Below the pieces are notes generated by a model. That model was not told the origin of the DNA. It made no database searches and worked only from the letters and a program-made list of their open reading frames with translations. A stretch of 25,085 nt of DNA. Source: Verrucomicrobiales bacterium (GTDB lineage: Bacteria; Verrucomicrobiota; Verrucomicrobiia; Limisphaerales; UBA1096). This document shows, piece after piece, positions 5,913-6,392 of this stretch (positions are counted from its first letter, which is position 1; each line of letters starts with the position of its first letter). A program made the translations under genes and the position numbers. The stretch covers positions 1 to 25,085 of the forward strand of contig PBKH01000063.1 of NCBI GenBank assembly GCA_002721375.1, read 5' to 3'.

Positions 5913-6392
<480 letters not shown>

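Follow-up and report, generated by a model that had tools for sequence, protein, structure and literature searches.

A private in-frame TAA at codon 55 of rpsG in a Verrucomicrobiales draft genome, probably a consensus error or a minority allele

The rpsG gene (ribosomal protein S7) of a Verrucomicrobiales draft genome was found to be interrupted by a single in-frame TAA at codon 55, which very probably is either an error of the consensus or a rare defective or minority allele that has become the consensus. The stop would then be no feature of the living population but a one-base error in the contig, or such an allele written out as a low-depth consensus; the changed base would be the first of a glutamine codon in an otherwise normal, single rpsG, and the cells would have an intact gene that yields normal full-length S7. 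In well-studied bacteria, rpsG is indispensable. On indirect evidence, an error is favored because the stop occurs in this genome alone among those listed, close relatives carry glutamine, the flanks are intact, and no supporting machinery was present among what was found; over a real mutation it is preferred because, besides the stop being private, no decay was apparent behind it, no candidate suppressor was found, and the gene is indispensable elsewhere.

The window, that is, the whole stretch of DNA that was analyzed, covers positions 1 to 25,085 of the 71,398-base contig C67 of the draft genome G000 (3,217,930 bases in 79 contigs; completeness estimate, 78%; contamination, 4%). The nearest named relatives were drafts from Verrucomicrobiota. 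Verrucomicrobiales bacterium ARS81, presumably a member of the 2018 Tara Oceans draft set, was the closest of them, with 92% identity over the frame at 3601..5781. The minus strand of the window presumably carries the usual cluster of RNA polymerase and ribosomal protein genes, in which only S7 was named by a test. The features around the stop are the following.

6415..6798, minus strand: upstream neighbor frame of 127 residues, presumably ribosomal protein S12, without internal stop and with TAA as terminator
6225..6386, minus strand: rpsG codons 1 to 54, front part of S7 (54 residues; translation and PF00177 positions 2-51, E 2.1e-14)
6222..6224, minus strand: in-frame TAA, rpsG codon 55; the 16 rpsG genes from the same genus encode glutamine here
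5913..6221, minus strand: rpsG codons 56 to 157 with the terminal TAG, encoding the rear part of S7 (102 residues; PF00177 positions 55-148, E 1.2e-36)
3601..5781, minus strand: downstream neighbor frame of 726 residues, presumably elongation factor G, with related proteins in named genomes

The full-length frame of rpsG runs from ATG at 6386 to TAG at 5913 with one in-frame TAA at 6224-6222, and codons 52 to 58 of the coding strand read GCA GAA AAA TAA GGT AAC AAT. A search of the draft with the S7 profile PF00177 returned one match, which covered positions 2-148 of 148 (E 3.6e-55) with one TAA inside. The gene is thus like other uS7 genes in its whole-length profile match and in adjoining the putative S12 and elongation factor G frames and differs from them in that its reading frame is interrupted by one TAA. 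Since the front piece matched the profile up to position 51 and the rear piece from position 55, no residue was lost or gained at the join, and the best solved S7 chain was likewise aligned gap-free across codon 55. A frameshift or insertion was rejected, as both the profile and the rpsG genes of relatives aligned gap-free over the TAA. The initial annotation had described an in-frame TAA at codon 55, a normal S7 N terminus and C terminus on either side of it, and a single-codon change without insertion or deletion; translation and the profile match spanning the stop confirmed the first of these points, the Pfam matches of both halves bore out the second, and the unchanged frame across the TAA agreed with the third.

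Codon 55 was compared in relatives, as had been proposed. Among 20 same-genus genomes, rpsG was present in 16 and an S7 match was absent in four (the named loci L032 and L033 were not counted on top of the genomes G013 and G014), and all 16 genes had a sense codon for glutamine at codon 55 (13 CAG and 3 CAA). In a collection of 5.8 billion proteins, all 10 near proteins that were read from the best 120 of 7,999 scored matches had glutamine at this position, including the closest one among those listed, P0001, with 96% identity. With glutamine in the relatives, and CAA in 3 of the 16, TAA is one transition, in the first codon base, away from CAA. Five more distant named relatives had Pro, Pro, Glu, Glu, and Gln, and position 55 is therefore free to vary over longer times. 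The residue had been described as the variable one of an "EKTG" loop, which holds for its variability beyond the genus but not for the loop itself, as S7 of the genus reads EKQG or near variants (NQG and IQG). For the same reason, CAA is the only one of the three sense codons offered (AAA, CAA, and TCA) that is backed by close relatives.

The stop was not shared by any other genome in the rows listed. S7 was present in 83 of 98 genomes searched (this draft and 97 relatives), and among the rows listed an internal stop was seen in this draft alone; the same stop was found in none of the 16 same-genus rpsG genes. All genomes compared at codon 55 belong to other species, the nearest genus member being 81% identical in rpsG DNA, and within this sample the TAA was private to one assembly, as a consensus error would be. 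A conserved recoding site at codon 55 was rejected, since the TAA was absent from all same-genus genomes with rpsG. A phylum-wide search gave an S7 match in 372 of 387 genomes, and the best rows listed were without internal stop; as these are the best rows only, no rate of internal stops was derived from them. In the protein collection, a search with the front piece gave six matches, none of which was of equal length and near-identical, and the best 120 of 2,309 matches to the rear piece (top match 94%, a protein of 135 residues) included no second record of the broken form, which is weak evidence because the collection is clustered at 90% and the pieces of this window are also unlisted. In one other genus member (G016), rpsG came in two pieces (L124 898-1308, contig C91); these were one gene holding a run of 411 Ns, and a broken rpsG was rejected there in favor of an assembly gap, not an insertion.

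Substitutions on the two sides of the stop were compared with those in relatives. In comparisons with ten same-genus relatives, the proportions were 0.008-0.057 before the TAA and 0.044-0.077 after it for non-synonymous differences and 0.50-0.83 for synonymous ones; on these values, selection on rpsG is purifying both before and after the TAA. The non-synonymous proportion was higher after the TAA in 10 of 10 comparisons, which are not independent because all include this gene's own branch, and in control pairs between relatives it was higher in one of five and lower in four of five. The higher values in the rear part could hint at a slight relaxation after the stop. Compared with 15 genomes of the genus, S7 had no private residue before the TAA and four after it; when P0001 was added, the numbers were 0 and 1, with 0-2 and 0-3 in relatives. 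As three of the four private residues of the rear part are common to the intact P0001, the apparent excess is mostly older than the stop, and we take this as no apparent decay of rpsG behind the TAA.

The stop lies in an AT-rich patch. The GC content at third positions of codons 34 to 73 (window 6168-6287) was 0.225, compared with a mean of 0.549 and a lowest value of 0.275 for 40-codon windows of 15 other genes of the window. Windows as low as 0.225 made up 0.38% (370 of 97,454) of those in the genome and occurred in 11 of 227 long frames. In 15 relatives, the values for codons 34 to 73 were 0.225 and 0.250 in two with a wholly AT-rich rpsG and 0.487-0.850 in the other 13. The patch encodes normal residues. 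It may have arisen by chance, by recombination with an AT-rich relative, or as a chimeric patch of the assembly, and it counts against an error.

How such an error could have arisen is suggested by the Ns of the draft. In 20 stretches (L171-L190, drawn from contigs C1, C5, C25, C40, C41, C55, C64, and C67), 397,000 bases held 1,341 Ns, nearly all of them single, and 721 of the 1,122 Ns within long frames were at third codon positions, as expected of real strain differences. The pattern looks like that of contigs of different samples that were merged, with disagreements written as N. The drafts of the 2018 Tara Oceans set were merged with Minimus2 according to the excerpt of PMC5769542. The window is without any N, such long N-free tracts alternating with N-rich ones, and so there is no sign of a comparison of this base with a second contig. 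The gene thus resembles consensus errors of metagenome drafts in having a private one-base change in a conserved gene, with single Ns at strain-variable positions elsewhere; the N pattern is common to the relative G013 and differs in the relative G009, where 73,761 bases include only 2 Ns. The excerpt of PMC6785717 covers insertions and deletions in long-read assemblies, and a literature search returned nothing on premature stop codons in ribosomal protein genes as assembly errors of metagenome-assembled genomes.

The number of false stops in the remainder of the draft was also assessed. In rpsG, 56 of the 1,404 possible single substitutions (~4%) yield a stop, and error rates between 1e-5 and 1e-4 per base are thus estimated to give ~1-10 false stops genome-wide. 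Among 153 matches to four large families in this genome (31, 79, 38, and 5), one had an internal stop, an in-frame TAG in a sulfatase fragment at a contig end (G000 C61:1-177). Matches to the sulfatase family numbered 79 in the 3.2-Mb draft, several of them clustered. A scan for nonsense codons over 422,085 bases (13% of the genome) gave 7 candidates in a strict version, with rpsG unlisted, and 29 in a looser version, with rpsG included. For 23 of the 29, a start codon lay no more than nine codons further on, and these were taken on visual inspection for gene boundaries or shadow frames; the remaining six had no start codon within nine codons. Six of the 29 were tested against Pfam (four with both halves and two with the rear piece), among them four of the six without a start codon, and among those tested only rpsG had both halves in one Pfam family. 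The front piece of one other candidate had a weak phage-integrase match below the cutoff. No other convincing interrupted gene was found in the 422,085 bases scanned, by a scan that is insensitive in that its strict version missed rpsG. A homology-based scan and a cleaner repeat of it were dominated by shadow frames and were left out of the counts; among the matches listed, rpsG was by eye the one interrupted true gene, apart from a stop before the start of the putative S12. False stops are not rife in the draft, with 1 in 153 family matches and no other convincing interrupted gene, which counts against an error.

Two further observations were made in the draft. A weak phage-integrase-like piece on contig C1 (L190 13342-13689, minus strand) has an in-frame TGA and Ns nearby and is perhaps a decayed integrase. 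Two ABC-transporter matches (G000 C2:1628-2098 and C4:1291-1761) have identical score and frame length and lie near contig ends on opposite strands, perhaps as a redundant overlap of contigs.

The explanations that take the stop as real are all less likely than an error, in falling order a missing second copy, readthrough, a split protein, and a changed code. The initial annotation had named an error, a real mutation with readthrough, and an intact second copy as the choices, and this reading is supported. There is a small chance that this copy is dead or dying and that the portion missing from the assembly contains a second, intact rpsG, as would be compatible with the completeness estimate and with the two S7 matches found in 2 of 387 genomes of the phylum (G307 and G466). 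The search for a second rpsG that the initial annotation had called for gave one S7 match, and no second gene, by profile search in this ~78% complete assembly; same-genus genomes with an S7 match had one rpsG each, and the gene, which lies between the putative frames of S12 and elongation factor G, shows no apparent decay, all of which argues against it. A slighter chance still attaches to a stop that is real in a gene that is used, UAA being read by a suppressor tRNA or a mispairing tRNA-Gln to give full-length S7 at reduced yield. Purifying selection on the frame after the TAA would fit such decoding, and a suppressor tRNA could be absent because the genome is incomplete; but no relative in the rows listed has the stop, the genome has two release-factor-family genes, and S7 is required by cells in large amounts. 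The 25 tRNA genes detected in the ~78% complete assembly included none with anticodon TTA or for any other stop codon, so none of those found would read UAA; tRNA-Gln(TTG) was missing from them as well, which fits an incomplete genome. Bacterial genes with in-frame stops and dN/dS below 1 are reported in the excerpt of PMC7918605, and rpsG is like these readthrough-type genes in that its stop lies inside a frame under purifying selection; it differs from them in that its stop is in one genome, whereas that study, according to the same excerpt, counted a stop only if at least two genomes had it at one position, a rule used to exclude sequencing errors. A literature search on rpsG nonsense mutation and readthrough returned only work on human p53.

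It is highly improbable that S7 is a two-piece protein whose rear part is translated from a new start behind the stop. An open frame of 84 residues does begin at TTG 6167, but this codon is 18 codons past the stop, so that residues 56 to 73 would be missing unless a non-ATG start is used; no ATG was found within 40 codons behind the stop and no ribosome-binding site was apparent by eye, and the broken pieces are unrecorded in the protein collection, a weak absence. Least probable of all is that the organism decodes TAA as glutamine, although this is the residue that relatives carry at codon 55. The 18 minus-strand genes of the window end in TAA (8), TAG (7), or TGA (3), and rpsG alone among them has an internal stop, the other 17 having none; with TAA as terminator of 8 of the 18 genes and two release-factor-family genes, a changed code is very unlikely, and it was rejected on these grounds and for want of a TTA-anticodon tRNA among those found. 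The statement of the initial annotation that TAA is a normal stop elsewhere in the window, and that a changed code is unsupported, therefore stands.

A consensus error, or a rare allele in its place, would make this gene a caution that a single wrong base in a draft genome can make an essential gene seem broken. A real and fixed TAA would be a striking example of a core ribosomal protein produced by stop readthrough and would open the tolerance of bacteria for nonsense codons in essential genes to direct testing. There is a slim chance that this Verrucomicrobiota lineage has a genuine UAA in rpsG and obtains S7 only through readthrough, possibly by tRNA-Gln, in which case its supply of ribosomes would depend on leaky termination.
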